From an uncultured Spirochaetales bacterium (GTDB lineage: Bacteria > Spirochaetota > Spirochaetia > Sphaerochaetales > Sphaerochaetaceae), in contig CALXOK010000003.1 in the NCBI GenBank assembly GCA_944390025.1, forward strand, positions 1 to 64,000: DNA of 64,000 nt, in the 5' to 3' direction. Made by a program: the position numbers and the translations under genes. Numbering within the stretch: position 1 is the first letter of the stretch; each line of letters starts with the position of its first letter. The notes beneath the pieces are model-generated. The model made no database searches. It was not told where the DNA came from and saw nothing but the letters and a program-made list of their open reading frames with translations. Below, in pieces: positions 25,554 to 36,767 of this stretch.

Positions 25554-26765
25554 TCAGTCCTTTATTTCCTGAATGCGTTTTCCCATGATTTCAATAAGGC
25601 CGACAACAAGAGCATTTCCCATACAGAAGTAGCGGAACTTCTGCGGCATACCGGTATTTGTCCAGTTATCGGGGAATCCGTCAAGACGCTCGCATTCCAC
25701 TGGTGTCAGAAGCCTCAGACGGCCACTTTCCGGATCTCGTACAACATGTGTTGACCTGTTTTTTGAGGACTCTCCCGTAAGCATTGTCCGGCTTGGCTTG
25801 TCGAGAAAGTCAGGATAAGCTATCGGCCCTTCTGAATAATTATATTCATGTCCATTAGCTGCAATTCTCTTCTCCCGCTTCGCCCCCTTCATATACTCCC
25901 ACTGGGCTTCATCTTCTTTCTTAATATAGAAGTCCTCAGAAACATTATGTTCCAGGCATTCACCAAGAGTCTTACGAGGTCCATCGTAAACAGCTTCAAC
26001 ACGGAGAGTATGAACCTCATTACCAATGCAATAACCACTGTTCTCGAAAGCAGCATGGAAAGTATCTGAAACTTCTTTTATATCCGGAAGAAGCTTTACC
26101 ACTGACGGTATTAAGTTCTGTCCATACAAACGGCACGGAAAAACAGGAGCAAAGAAACCGGACTCAAGAAGAACTCTGTCAGCACTCTTCTTTCCATACA
26201 ATGTTTTCTGAATGTTCTTGTCTTTTGTTGCGAATATGAAAGTCCTGCGCCTTCTCTGAGGGAAGCCGTAATCAGCAGCGTTAATCACACGCCATTCAAC
26301 CGTATATCCTAGAGAAGACAGGCATGCCAGAATAATACCAAAATCACGTCCCCTCTGTTTTGCCGGAGACTTCAGGAGTCTGTCAACATTTTCCAGAAGG
26401 ATGAACCTTGGCATCTTAGCTGATGCAATCCTGTAAATTTCCCACCAAAGGACACCCTTCTTTCCTTGAATACCTTTTGAGTTCGCCAGCGTGGATGCAA
26501 CTGAATAATCCTGGCAGGGGAATCCTCCGACAAGAAGCTCATGAGCAGGGATGTCTGCGGCATCAACAGTAGCGACATCAACATTCAGATTCACGCTTTC
26601 TGGAAAATGAGAGTTATAACAGTCAAACGCCCACTGGCTCTTCTTCCCGGGTTCCCACTGATTTGCAAAGATGACTTTCCACCCGGATTCACGAAGTCCG
26701 AGATTGAAACCACCCACTCCGGCAAAGAGTTCAACTACTGTATTTTCCTGTGTGCGTACTGTCAT
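25554..26765 (-). CDS. DNA (cytosine-5)-methyltransferase
   Basis: A 403-aa C5 methyltransferase: motif I VELFAGVGGFNLGLRESGW for AdoMet, motif IV VGGFPCQDYSVA with the catalytic cysteine near residue 84, motif VI ILLENVDRLL, motif VIII DYGFPQRRRRTFIFA and motif X FRYFCMGNALVVGLI. The start MTVRTQ at 26765 was chosen because AGGAGA precedes it; the longer frame would add a spurious hydrophobic leader. With the Sau3AI-like endonuclease 1 kb away it probably methylates the cytosine of GATC to protect the host. Confidence 0.9.
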   Translation of the reverse strand: MTVRTQENTVVELFAGVGGFNLGLRESGWKVIFANQWEPGKKSQWAFDCYNSHFPESVNLNVDVATVDAADIPAHELLVGGFPCQDYSVASTLANSKGIQGKKGVLWWEIYRIASAKMPRFILLENVDRLLKSPAKQRGRDFGIILACLSSLGYTVEWRVINAADYGFPQRRRRTFIFATKDKNIQKTLYGKKSADRVLLESGFFAPVFPCRLYGQNLIPSVVKLLPDIKEVSDTFHAAFENSGYCIGNEVHTLRVEAVYDGPRKTLGECLEHNVSEDFYIKKEDEAQWEYMKGAKREKRIAANGHEYNYSEGPIAYPDFLDKPSRTMLTGESSKNRSTHVVRDPESGRLRLLTPVECERLDGFPDNWTNTGMPQKFRYFCMGNALVVGLIEIMGKRIQEIKD

Positions 26766-26937
26766 ATTTCTCCTGTTTGACATCACCATCATAATTGAAA
26801 TGAAGCTTAAATGGAAGATCAAAAAGAAGAGTATCAGAAAATATTTTTTCGATCCAGAGGTAAGATTCGGTAGAAAATTGAATTCCCTCGCCTGGATTTC
26901 TGAATCAACTGCTGATATCCTGGACAAGAGAAAGGAA

Positions 26938-27738
26938 ATGAGCAGGAATCCGAACTGGACAGAAGAGGAAGATATTCTGGCACTCTGTCTGTATTACGAA
27001 TTGCCTTATGGCCAGCACGACAAGAACAACAGCAAAGTCAAGGAGCTTTCTGGAATTCTCAGAAGGAGAACCCCGGATTCCGTTGCCATGAAACTCAACA
27101 ATTTCAAGTCTTTTGACACGGCTTACTCCGGAGATGCACTCGGGCATGCCTCATCCACAGACAAGCGGGTCTGGGAAATGTTCATCAACGACCCTGCACT
27201 GCTGTTTGAAACCAGAAAAAGAATACTCGGTGACATGTACAGAGAGGAAATTTCAGATAAAGGAAGAACTGCTGTCTATCTTACGGATTCTGAAATGGAG
27301 AAGCTGGCAAACGAAATTAATTTCAGCGAAGAAGACAACAAACGGATACAGGCATGGAGAGAAAGGCAGTGGGCATTCAGACTCTCCCTGTTCAGGGGTT
27401 ATGACTCACAGTGTTGCCTGTCCGGAGTGAGTGCACCTGATTTTCTCATCGCCTCACACATTGTTCCATGGAATAAAGACAAAGAGAACAGACTCAATCC
27501 AAGAAACGGGCTTCTTCTGAATGTCTTTCTGGATAAGGCTTTCGATAAAGGCTACATTTCCATCAAGAAAGATGATTACACTGTAATGGTCTGTCCTGAT
27601 ATAAAAGATACAGGAATCAGACAACAGCTATTACGTTATGAAGGCTGTAAAATCAGACTTCCCAGAAATCCTGAGCGTTGGCCTGAAAAGCAGTTCCTTG
27701 AATACCATAACGACAATATTTTCAAAAGACAGGCTTAA
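26938..27738 (+). CDS. HNH endonuclease
   Basis: A 266-aa protein beginning RNPNWTEEEDILALCLYYELP, a common N-terminus of HNH restriction-type proteins. The C-terminal HNH_2-type domain shows CCLSGVSAPDFLIASHIVPW, then NPRNGLLLNVFLDKAFDKGYISI. The ATG at 26938 follows AAAGGA; a start 46 codons upstream is possible but adds a lysine-rich leader not typical of the family. It lies between the methyltransferase and the Sau3AI-like gene, transcribed opposite to both, so it may be a second nuclease of the same defence locus, perhaps for modified DNA or a Vsr-like role. Confidence 0.85.
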   Translation: MSRNPNWTEEEDILALCLYYELPYGQHDKNNSKVKELSGILRRRTPDSVAMKLNNFKSFDTAYSGDALGHASSTDKRVWEMFINDPALLFETRKRILGDMYREEISDKGRTAVYLTDSEMEKLANEINFSEEDNKRIQAWRERQWAFRLSLFRGYDSQCCLSGVSAPDFLIASHIVPWNKDKENRLNPRNGLLLNVFLDKAFDKGYISIKKDDYTVMVCPDIKDTGIRQQLLRYEGCKIRLPRNPERWPEKQFLEYHNDNIFKRQA

Positions 27739-27741
27739 TTT

Positions 27742-29148
27742 TCATTCCTGCACCAATGGCCGGAATGGAGTCCTGTTATCTACAATTTCCTGAATATACT
27801 CGTTGTTCAGCCAGAAGCATTTCTTTTTTTCAAATGTTCCTTGCGGAGTCTCCATAAGGCTGGCCCCATTCCGGCCTTTCGGGCGCACGTGAGCAATTCT
27901 CTTTTTGCTGGCGTTGATAAAATGCTTATAATCGCCATTCATTATTTTGTTTCTGGTGTCTTCCCATACGACCTGAGCTGTTTCCAGATCTGCAACCGGC
28001 ATATTCCATAACACAAAGCCATCGAACACATAGTCGTCATCATCTTTGTCCTTCTTCCGGAAAAACATGAATATAAACTTGCTTGTCAGCTCTTCATAGA
28101 AAAGACTGTCTTCCCAGTCCTCTGTGACGATATCCTTGAAATAAATATTCCGAAAAGACATAGCCTCATTGACTTTGCCATTTGCCTCAATCCTCACGGA
28201 TTTGACCTGAATGTTTCCAGCCTCAAACTCATGATAGTTCTCATCTTTCTGTAACCCGAGCATCGGTTTCATCAATCGTGCATATCGGGATTTATCCTTC
28301 GGATTAAACTTCGTTCCTGTAATTCTGGCAATTTTAGCACCGCAGATACCAAAATATCTGTCAAGCCGTTCATGGAGCAAAACATCAAGAGGCTTCCAGA
28401 CCTTTCCTGTCTGCAGGCTTTTTTCAGAATGCCTGTTTTCTCTGTCTGCAGCCAGAGTCTTATATATACTCTTTATGTAACTGGATTTCAGACACAACGC
28501 ACGACCCGGTGCAGGGATATCAGAGTATGGCTGCTTTTGCATGGATTTTTCCTTGTTTCCACCTTTTGTACATGCACCAAGCAGAACAGTATCACCTTCA
28601 GAAAGAAGATGAGCCTCGCCTCTTCTTACTTTAGCAACTATTGTATTCCAGTCTTCTTCCAGCTGTTTGGAGTCTCTTAGCAAGGTATCCCAGATATCAA
28701 CAAGATCAATCTTGAAGTTTCCATAATCGACGGAGTTTTTCATATAGAAATAGAACACAAGAAGGAGGTGGGCATTCTTTGAAACGAACTTTGATGTGTC
28801 AAAACTCTCTTTAACGATATCCACAAATCTAAAGTGATTCAGGACAAGCCGTTCCTTGACAGTGACTGTCCCGTCTTGAAGCTTTTTCAGAGGAGAAGCT
28901 TTCAGCTCGATAGCAAGTTCTGAAAAGTCAGGTCTGGACTCGCTGTCATTCTTCTTATGAAAGAACCTCTCTTCGAGAAAGTCACCGAATCCACCCTTCC
29001 CTTTATACTCTATCTTGTATTCAGCTTCATCAGCTTTGGTGAACTCACTGATAAACTCAGGAGGAATAAAATTGACAGCATCGTTAATCGTCCGTCCTTC
29101 AAGTGTTCTGGCATAATAAAGCAGTTTCTCTCTCGACTTGAATTCCAT
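27742..29148 (-). CDS. Sau3AI-like (MutH-fold) type II restriction endonuclease
   Basis: A 468-aa protein with the two-domain layout of Sau3AI. The N-terminal MutH-like domain begins LEGRTINDAVNFIPPE, and RPDFSELAIELKASPLKKL (about residues 72-90) gives the catalytic D-x6-ExK. The C-terminal domain has a second MutH-like region with GNIQVKSVRIEANGKVNEAM. Sau3AI cuts GATC using one active and one DNA-binding domain. The cognate methyltransferase lies on the same strand beyond the HNH gene. It ends 4 nt from the HNH stop (convergent). Confidence 0.85.
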   Translation of the reverse strand: MEFKSREKLLYYARTLEGRTINDAVNFIPPEFISEFTKADEAEYKIEYKGKGGFGDFLEERFFHKKNDSESRPDFSELAIELKASPLKKLQDGTVTVKERLVLNHFRFVDIVKESFDTSKFVSKNAHLLLVFYFYMKNSVDYGNFKIDLVDIWDTLLRDSKQLEEDWNTIVAKVRRGEAHLLSEGDTVLLGACTKGGNKEKSMQKQPYSDIPAPGRALCLKSSYIKSIYKTLAADRENRHSEKSLQTGKVWKPLDVLLHERLDRYFGICGAKIARITGTKFNPKDKSRYARLMKPMLGLQKDENYHEFEAGNIQVKSVRIEANGKVNEAMSFRNIYFKDIVTEDWEDSLFYEELTSKFIFMFFRKKDKDDDDYVFDGFVLWNMPVADLETAQVVWEDTRNKIMNGDYKHFINASKKRIAHVRPKGRNGASLMETPQGTFEKKKCFWLNNEYIQEIVDNRTPFRPLVQE

Positions 29149-29364
29149 ACTTCATCCTATCAGACTTTCAATGTGAAAATGCCTTTTAAGTATACAGCAT
29201 AACTACATACAAATTTTAATATTGCAAATCTCCAGTTTCAATAAATCAGGTCGACAATGTAGAAATTGTAACAACACTTCAAGATTAATCTCTCATGAGT
29301 TCTTGCTAAACTGCTGAATCCGATCAATTCTTCACTTACATATCTGTAAAAAAGGAGACCGGCT

Positions 29365-29652
29365 ATGACAATATCCCGCGAGATTAATGGAGTCACTGAA
29401 ACCATAGCACTTACAAAATCCGAAATGAAACGTGCTGCAACTATTGTCCGCGAAAACGATTTGATTTCATTTGCAGAAAACATGCTCATGACAGGCTACC
29501 CCGCAATATGGAAAGATGTTGAGTTGCGAGAGATTTTCATTTCGTCTTATCTACATGAATGGCTGAAATATGACAGCACTGACGACATTGATGTTTTCAA
29601 CATTGTGCTTGAAGAGTTGTCCGGTGGCAGCAAAACCCAGCAGGATTTCTAA
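29365..29652 (+). CDS. hypothetical protein (95 aa)
   Basis: A 95-aa acidic, mainly helical protein beginning MTISREINGVTETIALTKSE, without a recognisable domain or membrane segment. A strong AAAAAGGAG lies 7 nt before the ATG, which supports expression. It follows the restriction locus on the opposite strand. Similar small acidic proteins occur on plasmids and integrated elements of gut bacteria, but I cannot assign a family. Confidence 0.65.
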   Translation: MTISREINGVTETIALTKSEMKRAATIVRENDLISFAENMLMTGYPAIWKDVELREIFISSYLHEWLKYDSTDDIDVFNIVLEELSGGSKTQQDF

Positions 29653-29768
29653 TGAAAAGAGAGAAACTGCTTATTGACTTTCTGACTTTCAAACACTCAG
29701 ATTTTCCATCGTTTCCAAAAGAAAATAAAAAACCCCTCGCGCGGGAAAAAGGAGGTAAACCGCTGTAA
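29652..29768 (+). CDS. possible 38-aa basic peptide
   Basis: A 38-codon frame starts in the stop codon of the previous gene (TAATG): MKREKLLIDFLTFKHSDF, then a proline- and lysine-rich tail. The overlap suggests coupling. However, its 3' third runs antisense through the terminator of the candidate small RNA on the other strand, and it shows no family resemblance, so it may be a chance frame. Confidence 0.35.
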   Translation: MKREKLLIDFLTFKHSDFPSFPKENKKPLAREKGGKPL

Positions 29769-29824
29769 GGGGAACAAAAGGAGGTAAATTTATATGTCTG
29801 GGAACTTGGTGTTCCCTGTGTTAT
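29727..29824 (-). ncRNA. candidate small RNA with two anti-Shine-Dalgarno motifs
   Basis: A promoter (TTGACA-17-TATCTT) predicts a start near 29824. About 98 nt later a stem-loop, outer CCCCT/AGGGG and inner GCGG/CCGC, runs into six T (29732 to 29727), a rho-independent terminator. The transcript would carry a 6-bp hairpin GGGAAC-ACCAA-GTTCCC near the 5' end and two copies of UUUACCUCCUUUU (opposite 29776-29788 and 29747-29759), one between the stems and one in the terminator loop. CCUCC-type loops are the usual seed of small RNAs that block ribosome-binding sites. No protein gene lies in the 318-nt gap to the next stop. Confidence 0.6.
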
Positions 29825-29830
29825 GGCCTT

Positions 29831-29889
29831 AAGATAAAGGAATACGGATTTTATGTCAATATTTTTTTTGAAAATTTGTATACAAATTT
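29831..29889 (-). promoter_or_regulatory. promoter and upstream palindrome for the candidate small RNA
   Basis: On the minus strand a consensus -35 TTGACA (29854-29859) and TATCTT (29831-29836) are 17 nt apart. A perfect 18-bp palindrome AAATTTGTATACAAATTT (29872-29889) is centred about 56 nt before the predicted start, a normal place for an activator or repressor. The surrounding T/A tracts could also act as an UP element. Confidence 0.6.
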
Positions 29890-30038
29890 GAATTTTTTAT
29901 TCTTTTTCTGTTCGGATGGATTTTTTTATATTGGCTTATTCTTTATAATATAATTAATTATAAAAGATATTCATTCCAGAAAAAATTTTTGTAAAATAAG
30001 ATTTTCTTTAGATTTCTCATTCAGTTTTGACAAAAAAA

Positions 30039-30064
30039 CAGGACAGCCTGCTAAAACTGTCCTG
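30039..30064 (-). terminator. terminator of the pfk operon
   Basis: CAGGACAG (30039-30046) pairs perfectly with CTGTCCTG (30057-30064). On the minus strand it is followed, after one base, by seven T, about 25 nt past the phosphofructokinase stop. Confidence 0.85.
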
Positions 30065-30086
30065 CCTGATTCAGTTGTTTCAGTCT

Positions 30087-31412
30087 TCAGTTCTTCATAC
30101 TGAAGGGCTGTCTTGTATTCTCAAGGACGTCTCTCCAGAGGCTTCCCTCGATATCAACATGGCTTCTCTTGGAAACAGCCTGCTTGATCGGGAGATAGAC
30201 AAACTGGTTGTTCACGCAACTTACAAGACATCTTGTCTTTCCAGCCATTGCGGCATGGACGGCATGAGCACCGAGACGTGCACAGTAAATTGAGTCATAA
30301 CTGTTAGCCGGGGCTGAACGGATGATGTATGACGGGTCAATGTACTTGATTGATGTCGGGATACCCTCATCCTTGAAGTACTGCTTGATTCTCTCCTTGA
30401 GGAAGATACCGATGTCATGGTACTTGATGTTGCCGGAGGCATCAGTCTCTCCTGTAGGAGGAGCAAATTCCTGTCCCGCACCTTCTGCGACAAGGATGAC
30501 AGCATGTCCGCGCTCAAGGATTCTTCTCTTCAGATGCTCTAGAAGACCGTTCGGGCCATCAAGGTCAAAAGGACTTTCAGGAATGAGGCAGAAGTTGACG
30601 TCTGACTGGGCAAGGGATGTATGGGCGGCAATGAAGCCTGACTCACGTCCCATGACCTTTACAAGTCCGATTCCGTTGATTGAGTTCTTCGCCTCGACAT
30701 GGGCACCGCGGACTGACGGGACGGCACTTGCGACTGCAGTGTCAAAACCGAAGGATGAATCTATGAAGCTCAGGTCATTGTCGATTGTCTTTGGAACACC
30801 GACAACAGCGATTTTGAGTCCACGTCTTTTAATTTCCTCTCCGATATCATATGCACCGCGGAGCGTGCCGTCACCTCCGATTGTGATGAGAATATTAATA
30901 TTAAGTCTCTCAAGTGAATCGACAATCTCCTCAACCTGCTTTCCGCCGCCGCGGGCAGAGCCGAGGATTGTGCCGCCCTTCTCCTGAATGTCGTCAACGA
31001 CATCCGGATCAAGAGGGATGAGTGGCCAGGAAGAATTCTCCAGCAGACCGAGATAGCCGTACTGCACTCCAGAAATCCTCCTGACACCATAGCGGTACCA
31101 GAAGCATCTGACAACAGCCCTGATGACGTTGTTCAGTCCGGGACAGATTCCTCCGCATGTGCAGATTGCGGCATGGACGTGGCTGGGATTGAAGTAAATC
31201 TTCTCCCTCGGGCCTGCGACTTCCATTGCATCCTCGTGCACCGGCTGTCTTCTTCCGTCGACAACCTCCGTATCTGTCGAGTAAAGGACTTTGTCGTTGT
31301 CATTCACATAGTCGGCCATTCCATCCCCGCCCTGATGACTCATGCGGATTGGAGACTGGAGTTTGGCCTCTCCGAGGGTTTCGATGTCGAAATCATAAAG
31401 ACGGTCACCCAT
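30087..31412 (-). CDS. 6-phosphofructokinase, plant/clade-X type
   Basis: A 441-aa phosphofructokinase with N-terminal extension. Landmarks: CGGICPGLNNVIRAVV (about residues 85-100), QEKGGTILGSARGG, ITIGGDGTLRGAYDIG, VVGVPKTIDNDLSFID with the catalytic aspartate, and VKVMGRESGFIA. GGDGT carries the glycine of ATP-using enzymes, while PKTIDND carries the lysine typical of pyrophosphate enzymes; this pairing is that of plant and trypanosomatid ATP-PFKs, so ATP use is likely but not certain. The start has GGAGG and overlaps the end of the ModE-like gene. Confidence 0.88.
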   Translation of the reverse strand: MGDRLYDFDIETLGEAKLQSPIRMSHQGGDGMADYVNDNDKVLYSTDTEVVDGRRQPVHEDAMEVAGPREKIYFNPSHVHAAICTCGGICPGLNNVIRAVVRCFWYRYGVRRISGVQYGYLGLLENSSWPLIPLDPDVVDDIQEKGGTILGSARGGGKQVEEIVDSLERLNINILITIGGDGTLRGAYDIGEEIKRRGLKIAVVGVPKTIDNDLSFIDSSFGFDTAVASAVPSVRGAHVEAKNSINGIGLVKVMGRESGFIAAHTSLAQSDVNFCLIPESPFDLDGPNGLLEHLKRRILERGHAVILVAEGAGQEFAPPTGETDASGNIKYHDIGIFLKERIKQYFKDEGIPTSIKYIDPSYIIRSAPANSYDSIYCARLGAHAVHAAMAGKTRCLVSCVNNQFVYLPIKQAVSKRSHVDIEGSLWRDVLENTRQPFSMKN

Positions 31413-31773
31413 TATCGTATTCCTCCATTTTCTCTTTCAAAGCACTGCAGAACTCATTATACGGTTCCATCACCCTTTCTTTAGCCTCAAGCTGGAAAGT
31501 CCGGTAAAGTTTCACAAGTTCTTTACCGAAGGCTGTCAGACAGGCACCGTCACGGCTGACGCCGCCTTTCTTACGCTCCAGCACGGCAAAGCCGAGTTCC
31601 TCTTCCAGACGCTTTATCATATTGTACGCCTTGGTATAGGAAATTGTCATGTCTTTTGCGGCCTTCAGAAGGCTGCCAAGCTCATCGGTCTTCTCAAGAA
31701 GCCAGAGGACACCGATTCCCATGAACTTCTCGCCCTTGTCATCTGTAAGGTAAAGCTTTACTTTCAGCTCCAT
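31405..31773 (-). CDS. ModE-like winged-helix regulator
   Basis: A 122-aa protein matching the N-terminal ModE (LysR-type winged helix) domain: GIGVLWLLEKTDELGSLLKA, MTISYTKAYNMIKRLEEELG, VLERKKGGVSRDGACLTAFG. The molybdate-binding MOP domains of full ModE are absent, so a different signal is possible. It overlaps the aminotransferase stop and the phosphofructokinase start, which puts it in one operon. A molybdopterin-type enzyme locus lies about 8 kb away, but no direct link is shown. Confidence 0.82.
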   Translation of the reverse strand: MELKVKLYLTDDKGEKFMGIGVLWLLEKTDELGSLLKAAKDMTISYTKAYNMIKRLEEELGFAVLERKKGGVSRDGACLTAFGKELVKLYRTFQLEAKERVMEPYNEFCSALKEKMEEYDNG

Positions 31774-35221: not shown

Positions 35222-36481
35222 TCAGGCTTGTCCTGACGTGGGGAATGCCGGCCTCCTTGTTATAACATCCCCATTCGAGTGCCAGAGAAGGGTGAACTTC
35301 TTCCTCGGCACATCCGTTAAAGTCTTCGGAACGTCAAGAGGTTTGAGGCTGTACAATCCTCTCGTCTTCCTGGCGGTAACAATCATCTGTCTCCCGTCCT
35401 CGTGCTCTACGATGTCGTAACGGGCGATGCCCTTCACAAGCCTTGGTGCTTGGTTGCGTTTCAGCTTTCCGATTTTCGTGATGTTCTGCTTCATCACCTG
35501 GCGGTTATGGCAACGCACCTTCAGAATGTCGTATACGTTATCGGCCCTTTCCGCATTGAAATTCCCGGCGATGCAGAAGGCGTCATTGGTATGAGTCTTT
35601 TCAGCCTTCAGATTGTTTCTGTTCCAGTTCGTGACGTATCCGTAGGTTTGAATGACCGGGATATCAGGGTGGGTTTTCTTCAACCTGTCGAGAAGAAACC
35701 AGCGCATCGTGTTCATCGCTGTTGCTCCTTTGAAGCCTTTGTCCTCGGGAAAGGGGATGGCAAGCGGTCTCTTGCCGTTATGGTGGTTCTCATGGCATTT
35801 CTCGCAGAGCGTGATGAGGTTTGAGGGTCTGTCGGAACCGCCGTCATGGCGGTGGATGATGTGGTGCACCTCAAGATGATCATGAGAGCCACAACTCCAA
35901 CAGGTGAAGTTGTCTCTTGCCTTTACATATGCCTTGACGTTGGCATAGGCAAGCTGTTCTCCTTCCTGGTAGCTCTTGCCTTCGATGTTCTCATCCTTGA
36001 TTTTCTGGATATCGAAGGAAGCCGTCTCGACGACAATCTTCGAGACGGGCAGGATGGAGCAGATGTCGTTGATGGCGTTGACGTGAGACTTAATCTTGGT
36101 CTCCATCGTGGGAGTGAGCCAGCCGTCGGGCCTTCTCCTGTTATCGAAGCGTGGCTTGCGATAGCGGAGACGGTTTCTGCGTGTACGCCTCGACTGTCGA
36201 CGTGCAGTCATAAGCTGAGGAACATCGTTACGCAACGTCATCTCGGCGCTGAAAAGCTCCTCTTTCTTTGTCGAAGCGGAAAGCCCCACATGCTTCGAAC
36301 CGGCATCTACTCCGAGCGAGACAGGCTGCATACAGTGCGTCTCAGGCTCGTAGAGCAGTTGGATGGTGAAAGGGCATCTCTTCACGACCTTCGCCTGTTT
36401 CCTCTTCAGCAGCCACTTGACCTTGCCTTGGCGCTTTGTGGACATCAGCGGACGTCCGTCCTTGTCGATTACATAGACCAT
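35222..36481 (-). CDS. iscB: IscB RNA-guided nuclease
   Basis: A 419-aa IscB, the OMEGA nuclease ancestral to Cas9. In order: PLMP-type N-terminal domain (VYVIDKDGRPLMSTKR), RuvC-I SLGVDAGSKHVGLS with Asp59, an arginine-rich bridge helix (ARRQSRRTRRNRLRYRKPRF), RuvC-II KIVVETASFDIQ with Glu152, HNH domain CWSCGSHDHLEVHHIIHRHD plus CEKCH (about 194-230), and RuvC-III HTNDAFCIA with His297 and Asp300. All catalytic residues are present, so it should cut both DNA strands guided by its omegaRNA. AGGAGG lies before the ATG, at the end of the structured RNA region. Confidence 0.93.
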   Translation of the reverse strand: MVYVIDKDGRPLMSTKRQGKVKWLLKRKQAKVVKRCPFTIQLLYEPETHCMQPVSLGVDAGSKHVGLSASTKKEELFSAEMTLRNDVPQLMTARRQSRRTRRNRLRYRKPRFDNRRRPDGWLTPTMETKIKSHVNAINDICSILPVSKIVVETASFDIQKIKDENIEGKSYQEGEQLAYANVKAYVKARDNFTCWSCGSHDHLEVHHIIHRHDGGSDRPSNLITLCEKCHENHHNGKRPLAIPFPEDKGFKGATAMNTMRWFLLDRLKKTHPDIPVIQTYGYVTNWNRNNLKAEKTHTNDAFCIAGNFNAERADNVYDILKVRCHNRQVMKQNITKIGKLKRNQAPRLVKGIARYDIVEHEDGRQMIVTARKTRGLYSLKPLDVPKTLTDVPRKKFTLLWHSNGDVITRRPAFPTSGQA

Positions 36482-36767
36482 ATGGTCTCCTCCTGGACCT
36501 CTTTCGAGGTAATGCCGGGATTCCTCCCGGTTGTGACGTATCTCTCACCACTGTCCCGAGCCGATGTTATCCGACGGTTTGATGCATACGGCACTGCTCC
36601 TACCTGTCAGAGCTGTTTAACCATGCACCGCAGTGTCCGGAGCTGGAACGACACCCCGGAGTGCCTATGTATTCGCCGGTAACGGAGTTCAGAGCCGAAG
36701 CTCTTCACTTGGGCTGATCAAGCAAGGCTCTTGCAAGCCTACGGGTTCATCCCGTCAGGTGCTTGAT
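36482..36767 (-). ncRNA. IscB omegaRNA region
   Basis: The roughly 285 nt upstream of iscB are dense with stems on the coding strand: ATCAAGC/GCTTGAT closing a multibranch (36761-36767, 36717-36723) that holds ACGGG/CCCGT and GGCT/AGCC hairpins; AGAGC-TTCG-GCTCT (36691-36704); GTGTC/GACAC (36633-36654); CCGGGA-TTCC-TCCCGG (36515-36530); ACCTC/GAGGT (36497-36510). This position and layout match IscB omegaRNAs, which carry the guide at their 5' end. The guide should be the bases just 5' of the stem, i.e. the last codons of the GltD-like gene. Confidence 0.75.

Follow-up and report, generated by a model that had tools for sequence, protein, structure and literature searches.

Does a stretch of about 98 nt in which the same complement of the Shine-Dalgarno (SD) sequence is written twice encode a regulatory RNA, and what would such an RNA regulate? 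The question is raised by a 64,000-nucleotide window (the whole stretch of DNA analysed here) from an uncultured Spirochaetales bacterium of the Sphaerochaetaceae, whose genome assembly comprises 1.83 Mb in 41 contigs and is 85.6% complete. We consider it probable that the locus encodes a single-copy, trans-acting anti-SD small RNA of the Spirochaetia that represses translation by SD pairing; its transcription, repressive action, targets and signal we infer.

Spirochaetes have few annotated regulatory RNAs, and a 2022 survey of Rfam-based annotation gives six distinct small RNAs for the phylum in the part of the source available (PMC9029176). The RNA described here is absent from Rfam 15, apparently single-copy, and present in the majority of Sphaerochaetaceae as well as many Spirochaetia beyond them. 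It offers a testable, culturable system for asking how the most general seed, the anti-SD of the ribosome, gains specificity. It also raises the question of whether bacteria without a recognised Hfq tie uptake to central metabolism by the same logic as Proteobacteria.

Layout of the locus

The features of the locus are collected in Table 1. Read along the minus strand, the palindrome comes first, followed by the promoter, the 5' hairpin, motif copy 1 and the terminator hairpin with copy 2 in its loop. The start of the RNA was set about 7 nt past the -10 box, which is an assumption, and its end at the U-tract.

Table 1. Features of the small RNA locus and its conserved neighbours (positions in the window)
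Feature	Positions	Strand	Basis
Predicted small RNA gene, ~98 nt	29727-29824	-	Match to covariance model R1 at 29728-29790, E 4.8e-14; fold
5' hairpin GGGAAC-ACCAA-GUUCCC	29800-29816	-	Fold and sequence
Anti-SD copy 1 (linker), UUUACCUCCUUUU; opens the conserved stretch ACCUCCUUUUGUUCCCC	29776-29788	-	Motif search, family comparison
Anti-SD copy 2 (terminator loop), same 13 nt	29747-29759	-	Fold, motif search, family comparison
Terminator hairpin, stem covarying	29733-29772	-	Fold; covariation
Terminator U-tract, six U	29727-29732	-	Sequence, fold
Sigma70-type promoter TTGACA-17-TATCTT	29831-29859	-	TTGACA at 29859-29854, TATCTT ending at 29831; pattern search
Perfect 18-bp palindrome AAATTTGTATACAAATTT, core TTTGTATACAAA; probable operator	29872-29889	.	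Core TGTATACA here in 13/13 loci of the genus
Terminator-like hairpin of pfk, between pfk and the small RNA	30036-30067	-	Sequence search
6-phosphofructokinase (pfk), conserved upstream neighbour	30087-31412	-	Pfam PF00365, NCBIfam NF005301, synteny
ModE/LysR-type DNA-binding domain protein; overlaps the pfk start, part of the conserved order	31405-31773	-	Domain search, synteny

For the RNA of about 98 nt, RNAfold gives a free energy of -24.4 kcal/mol (z -2.1) and leaves both motif copies unpaired, the first lying between two stems and the second in the loop of the terminator. A preliminary description of this DNA had proposed a small RNA with a twin 13-mer 29 nt apart, unpaired CCUCC in the linker and the terminator loop, and an 18-bp palindrome upstream. 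Its coordinates for the promoter, the terminator, both motif copies and the palindrome were all correct on re-check. The 13-mer TTTACCTCCTTTT is exact at both sites, RNAfold agrees that the motifs are unpaired, the palindrome is present, and the small-RNA reading is supported by covariance matches across the Sphaerochaetaceae, with covarying stems and the motifs kept.

The repeated motif and the 16S rRNA tail

With up to one mismatch allowed, the two copies are the only sites for the 13-mer in the 64 kb, where 0.11 would be expected, and two sites were found in none of 100 dinucleotide shuffles of the window. A pair of such 13-mers in 64 kb is far beyond chance. The 3' tail of 16S rRNA reads GGATCACCTCCTTTCT in all four loci examined, from four genomes, so the RNA carries the ribosome's own anti-SD twice. 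CUCCUUU occurs at least twice in 52 of the 56 members of a model alignment, and 45 carry a pair of ACCUCCUUU, the conserved part that is identical to the 16S tail. The linker stretch CCUCCUUUUGUUCCCC, outside the 16S-like part, is conserved in 60 of 64 family sequences; motif counts from this set are partly circular because its rows were extracted by a pattern containing the motifs (which dropped loci L048 and L087), and those from the 56-row alignment are less so.

This identity with the 16S tail, together with the exposure of the motif, would also suit a decoy. Era, S1 and bS21 recognise the 3' end of 16S rRNA, and an RNA that bound proteins of this kind might tune ribosome assembly or initiation globally. 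However, GAUCA, which lies 5' of the anti-SD in 16S rRNA and is part of Era's site, is not retained in the small RNA, and conservation continues past the 16S-like part into the linker stretch, as expected for pairing or structure. We regard a decoy as quite improbable.

Conservation in the family, class and phylum

A blastn scan shows that the 3' half of the element recurs across the family. The blastn family count (116/119 at E<=1), which takes in numerous short AT-rich matches, gave way to a covariance count. The covariance model was built from 49 core sequences, and many family genomes contributed sequences to it. At E<=0.01 it matches 122 of 139 Sphaerochaetaceae genomes, including 69 of the 75 of good quality; the other 17 have no match at this threshold. 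There is one match in 119 of the 122 positive genomes, and the second match in the remaining three is weak in two (E 0.003-0.005) and at a contig edge in one. The named relatives bearing the RNA (46 loci) are Bullifex porci, Candidatus Ornithospirochaeta, Candidatus Aphodenecus and uncultured Spirochaetales.

When the scan was extended to the class at the same threshold, 141 of 394 genomes matched, of which 56 lie outside the Sphaerochaetaceae in about 20 other families; these 56 were absent from model building, and chance would account for about four matches among 394 genomes. Half of the outside-family loci (28/56) were inspected: the layout is the same in most of them (CAUCGACCUCCUUUUGAUGUUCCCCUCAGGGUUUUAACCUCCUUUUCCCUGAGGGGUUUUU is an example), and a few match the terminator alone. 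A second model, with 56 members, was used to scan the phylum at E<=0.001 and matched 64 of 392 genomes, 63 in the class and one outside it at 1.6e-4. A plasmid similarity search returned short matches only, in four records, none covering 80%, and an exact-pattern scan of viral contigs gave no matches.

Stem covariation was assessed on the model-based alignment, as a MAFFT alignment had misaligned stems of differing length (RNAalifold). Across its 56 rows (53 distinct), 86.8% of cells pair, and all nine stem pairs have changed on both sides. The covariation score is 0.405, compared with 0.152 for shuffles (0/500 as high) and at most 0.123 for slid partners; the latter control is the fairer one because the model alignment was fitted to the structure. 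The stems vary by compensatory mutation while both CCUCC motifs persist. Folding members individually leaves both motifs unpaired in most. In several distant members copy 1 lies in the loop of a small additional hairpin, CAUCG...GAUG, and two outlying loci (L155 and L157) have, by eye, two consecutive hairpins, each with ACCUCCUUU in its loop. In all 62 folded family sequences the 5' region contains a hairpin with 4 bp or more, the sequence of which differs between genera.

The covariation search in relatives suggested in the preliminary description has thus given a family-wide match and weaker matches in the 56 genomes of other families. Its expectation that relatives would keep both CCUCC motifs, the promoter and the terminator holds for the motifs and the terminator throughout the family and, more weakly, the class. 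The promoter is kept in the genus and not elsewhere in the class, where there is a different conserved one.

Promoters and operator

In a chance check, three promoter-like sites were found where 3.3 were expected; the promoter alone is at chance level, so its weight comes only from conservation. By pattern, a TTGACA-like/TATNNT promoter lies 59-69 nt upstream of the core of the RNA in 10 of the 14 family loci tested. The palindrome core TGTATACA is found about 12-15 nt before the -35 box at all 13 loci of the window's genus. Loci of a sister genus (L018, L023, L079 and L096) have the palindrome AAAAGTACTTTT near the -35 region in place of TTTGTATACAAA, which suggests operator turnover between genera.

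In 22 of the 28 loci from other families (L133-L160), the core is preceded at a distance of 53-69 nt by TGTAAC or TGTTAC; neither hexamer occurs within 160 nt of the core in any of 26 family loci. GTT follows exactly 17 nt past the hexamer in 19 of the 25 outside-family loci with an upstream hexamer. We take this TGTAAC-N17-GTT element to resemble an extracytoplasmic-function sigma promoter and to be unlike a sigma70 one. A search of three complete genomes for TTGTAACY-N16-GTTT gave two sites, including the RNA's own; the reversed pattern, used as a control, also gave two, so no regulon can be claimed.

Gene neighbourhood

The gene for 6-phosphofructokinase was found in 67 of 101 distinct loci of the family and class. 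In 66 of these it is upstream on the same strand, within 700 nt of the RNA in 59; in the other 34 loci pfk was not found within the available stretch, which in many cases is short or at a contig end. Among the 28 outside-family loci, pfk is upstream on the same strand in 11 (within 300 nt in eight) and in the opposite orientation in one, and 16 have no pfk within about 2.5 kb. The aminotransferase and ModE-like genes that precede pfk hold their order in several outside-family loci. The ModE-like protein has 122 aa and is without an effector domain, and its position upstream of pfk and the RNA is kept into other families.

On the other side of the RNA, positions 25554-29652 hold a restriction-modification island (a C5 cytosine methylase, an HNH protein and a MutH/Sau3AI-like protein) plus an uncharacterised 95-aa ORF that adjoins the RNA. 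The MutH-like protein and the 95-aa ORF had no match in any of the relatives' loci compared; the RNA is therefore neither the leader nor the antisense of any conserved neighbour. Elsewhere in the window, a HEARO RNA (RF02033, 36538-36767) followed by an RRXRR and HNH gene (together 35222-36767, minus strand) makes up an IscB-type omega-RNA/nuclease pair.

The age of the tandem arrangement with pfk, and the location of the second motif within a terminator loop, could be accommodated by a cis element: a complex terminator, a 3' UTR or an attenuator that serves pfk or a downstream gene. Yet pfk has a terminator-like hairpin of its own ahead of the RNA, a promoter lies between the two in the genus, some loci have no pfk nearby, and the gene that follows the RNA in the window does not recur at the other loci compared. 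A cis-acting role is, in our judgement, highly improbable.

Predicted targets

Target predictions are confounded by SD strength because the motif is the general SD complement. In a 459-kb sample of the window's own genome, 29 of 394 genes have at least 8 nt of complementarity to CAAAAGGAGGTAAATTT. The 12 SBP_bac_1 (sugar-binding protein) genes in this genome have a mean longest complementarity of 8.9 nt, compared with 5.5 nt for 391 others (p 1.5e-7), and 9.3 versus 6.8 nt when strong-SD genes only are considered (p 1e-6). Three other genomes show a smaller SBP excess that is inseparable from SD strength (strong-SD p 0.10, 0.39 and 0.39); the SBP genes used in the four genomes were 12/12, 11/27, 11/56 and 8/8 matches. 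For exported-like genes, defined by a signal-peptide control, the proportions with at least 8 nt versus those of other genes are 8/33 and 25/363, 5/12 and 4/106, 1/10 and 8/112, and 4/10 and 8/82 in the four genomes. The trend holds for exported-like proteins at large in three of the four.

The 11-mer ACAAAAGGAGG occurs at 69 sites in 16 genomes of the genus, the RNA's own antisense included; in the stretches examined, 34 of these precede an ORF of 80 codons or more. Pfam was run on 30 of the 34 ORFs, among which are 10 ABC-transporter components and two EF-G2-like proteins; of the other four ORFs, three resemble EF-G2 in sequence. The EF-G2-like gene has 9-11 nt of complementarity in 30/30 loci from two genera and 5-8 nt in 18 loci from other genera (two further stretches were unreadable), and canonical EF-G has 4-5 nt in 20/20 loci. 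Judged by complementarity, the EF-G2-like gene would be the clearest single target candidate. The ribosome-binding site of this GTPase (L326-L355), usually CAAAAGGAGG, is strikingly constant in the two genera, and its flanks vary.

Prediction of targets among GGAGG-containing leaders, also suggested in the preliminary description, thus picks out long matches at SBP and EF-G2-like genes; an SBP excess beyond SD strength is seen in the window's genome only. The complementarity patterns of the SBP, exported-like and EF-G2-like genes favour a multi-target repressor, the targets of which would depend on lineage, with an emphasis on uptake and envelope genes. No Hfq was recognised in the window's own genome, at 85.6% completeness of the assembly.

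The RNA might instead act as a sponge that captures another GGAGG-containing regulatory RNA rather than mRNAs, much as the CrfA and SisA sponge RNAs pair with similar small RNAs in the part of the source available (PMC12559287). The conserved strand is nevertheless the CCUCC strand, complementary to the SDs of mRNAs, and no partner RNA was found short of a systematic search; we give this reading very little credence. A reading of the GGAGG sequences as the usual ribosome-binding sites of small genes on the plus strand (ORFs of 38 codons at 29653-29769 and of 12 codons from 29794) can be virtually dismissed, for although AAAAGGAGGTAAATTTATATG is a well-placed SD, conservation tracks the minus-strand stem-loop and the frame is not preserved in the 11 relatives checked: the Met before the motif is missing in nine, and the small ORF of the other two differs in sequence and length. 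A 5' ORF on the minus strand of some Sphaerochaeta-type loci was also rejected, having by eye no common start or frame.

Proposed mode of action

For the favoured trans-acting repressor, which we infer from structure and complementarity and from known analogues, the following mode of action can be proposed. The RNA would expose its two copies of ACCUCCUUU in the linker and the terminator loop, and pair with the SD region of mRNAs that have long complementarity, up to AAGGAGGUAAAUU or ACAAAAGGAGG. Such pairing would cover the landing site of the 30S subunit, keep the subunit off and repress translation. In the window's genus, transcription would start from the sigma70-type promoter, beside which lies the conserved palindrome as operator; the TGTAAC-N17-GTT promoter-like element would precede the RNA in the class's other families. 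The outcome would be an adjustment of nutrient-uptake and envelope-protein synthesis, a role suggested by the position downstream of pfk and by the excess of sugar-uptake and exported genes among the best-matching ribosome-binding sites. We draw the link to glycolysis from gene position and predicted targets only.

More tentatively, the RNA may belong to an ancient regulon of the whole class Spirochaetia. A pfk-side RNA that copies the 16S tail would have switched promoters between lineages, from the alternative-sigma-type TGTAAC-N17-GTT to sigma70 with a local operator. It would couple glycolytic or envelope state to how strongly uptake proteins, exported proteins and the EF-G2-like factor are translated, possibly without Hfq. 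We see this wider scenario as possible but rather doubtful.

Comparison with known systems

At the gathering threshold, Rfam 15 has nothing at the locus, and HEARO alone passes, elsewhere in the window; under permissive settings the best sub-threshold matches at the locus are at chance level (E 0.12 and above). The LhrC RNAs of Listeria have C-rich unpaired motifs. LhrC (RF00616) differs from the RNA described here: its covariance score at the locus is 15.9 bits, where the gathering score is 110. We found no description of the RNA in the open-licence literature on Sphaerochaeta, Treponema, spirochete or anti-SD small RNAs.

Three systems offer closer parallels, each as set out in the part of its source available. 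NmsRA and NmsRB of Neisseria meningitidis have one single-stranded anti-SD stretch between two stem-loops and another within the loop of a stem-loop, and target the SDs of metabolic mRNAs (PMC5362039). The likeness is of layout only: they are two sibling RNAs with three stem-loops in another phylum, whereas here 119 of 122 genomes have a single match, and no family link to NmsR was found in Rfam. In alpha-r14/NfeR1 of the Alphaproteobacteria, identical ultraconserved anti-SD motifs are unpaired and stem sequences diverge (PMC10746234), which matches the constant motif and variable stems seen here; alpha-r14 differs in having three hairpins, each with CCUCCUCCC, as against two hairpins and two ACCUCCUUU, one of them in the linker. 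The csRNAs of Streptococcus have two stem-loops, a linker complementary to the SD and AUG, and their own intergenic promoter (PMC3091779). They share with our RNA the two stem-loops and anti-SD linker, and differ in their CiaR-controlled TTTAAG-repeat promoters (TTTAAG is, by eye, absent from the minus strand at 29960-29700), in their several copies per genome against one here, and in pairing that extends to the AUG, where ours would cover the SD without it.

With the functional class of trans-acting anti-SD small RNAs the RNA shares a conserved motif, predicted to be unpaired, that is complementary to SDs; a promoter and a terminator of its own are predicted and conserved. The defining features of each known family fail here, so we describe it as working like them and do not file it with them. 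As far as the available parts of the sources describe them, its closest counterparts are NmsRA/B by layout, alpha-r14 by the combination of constant motif and variable stems, and the csRNAs by two stem-loops and a linker.
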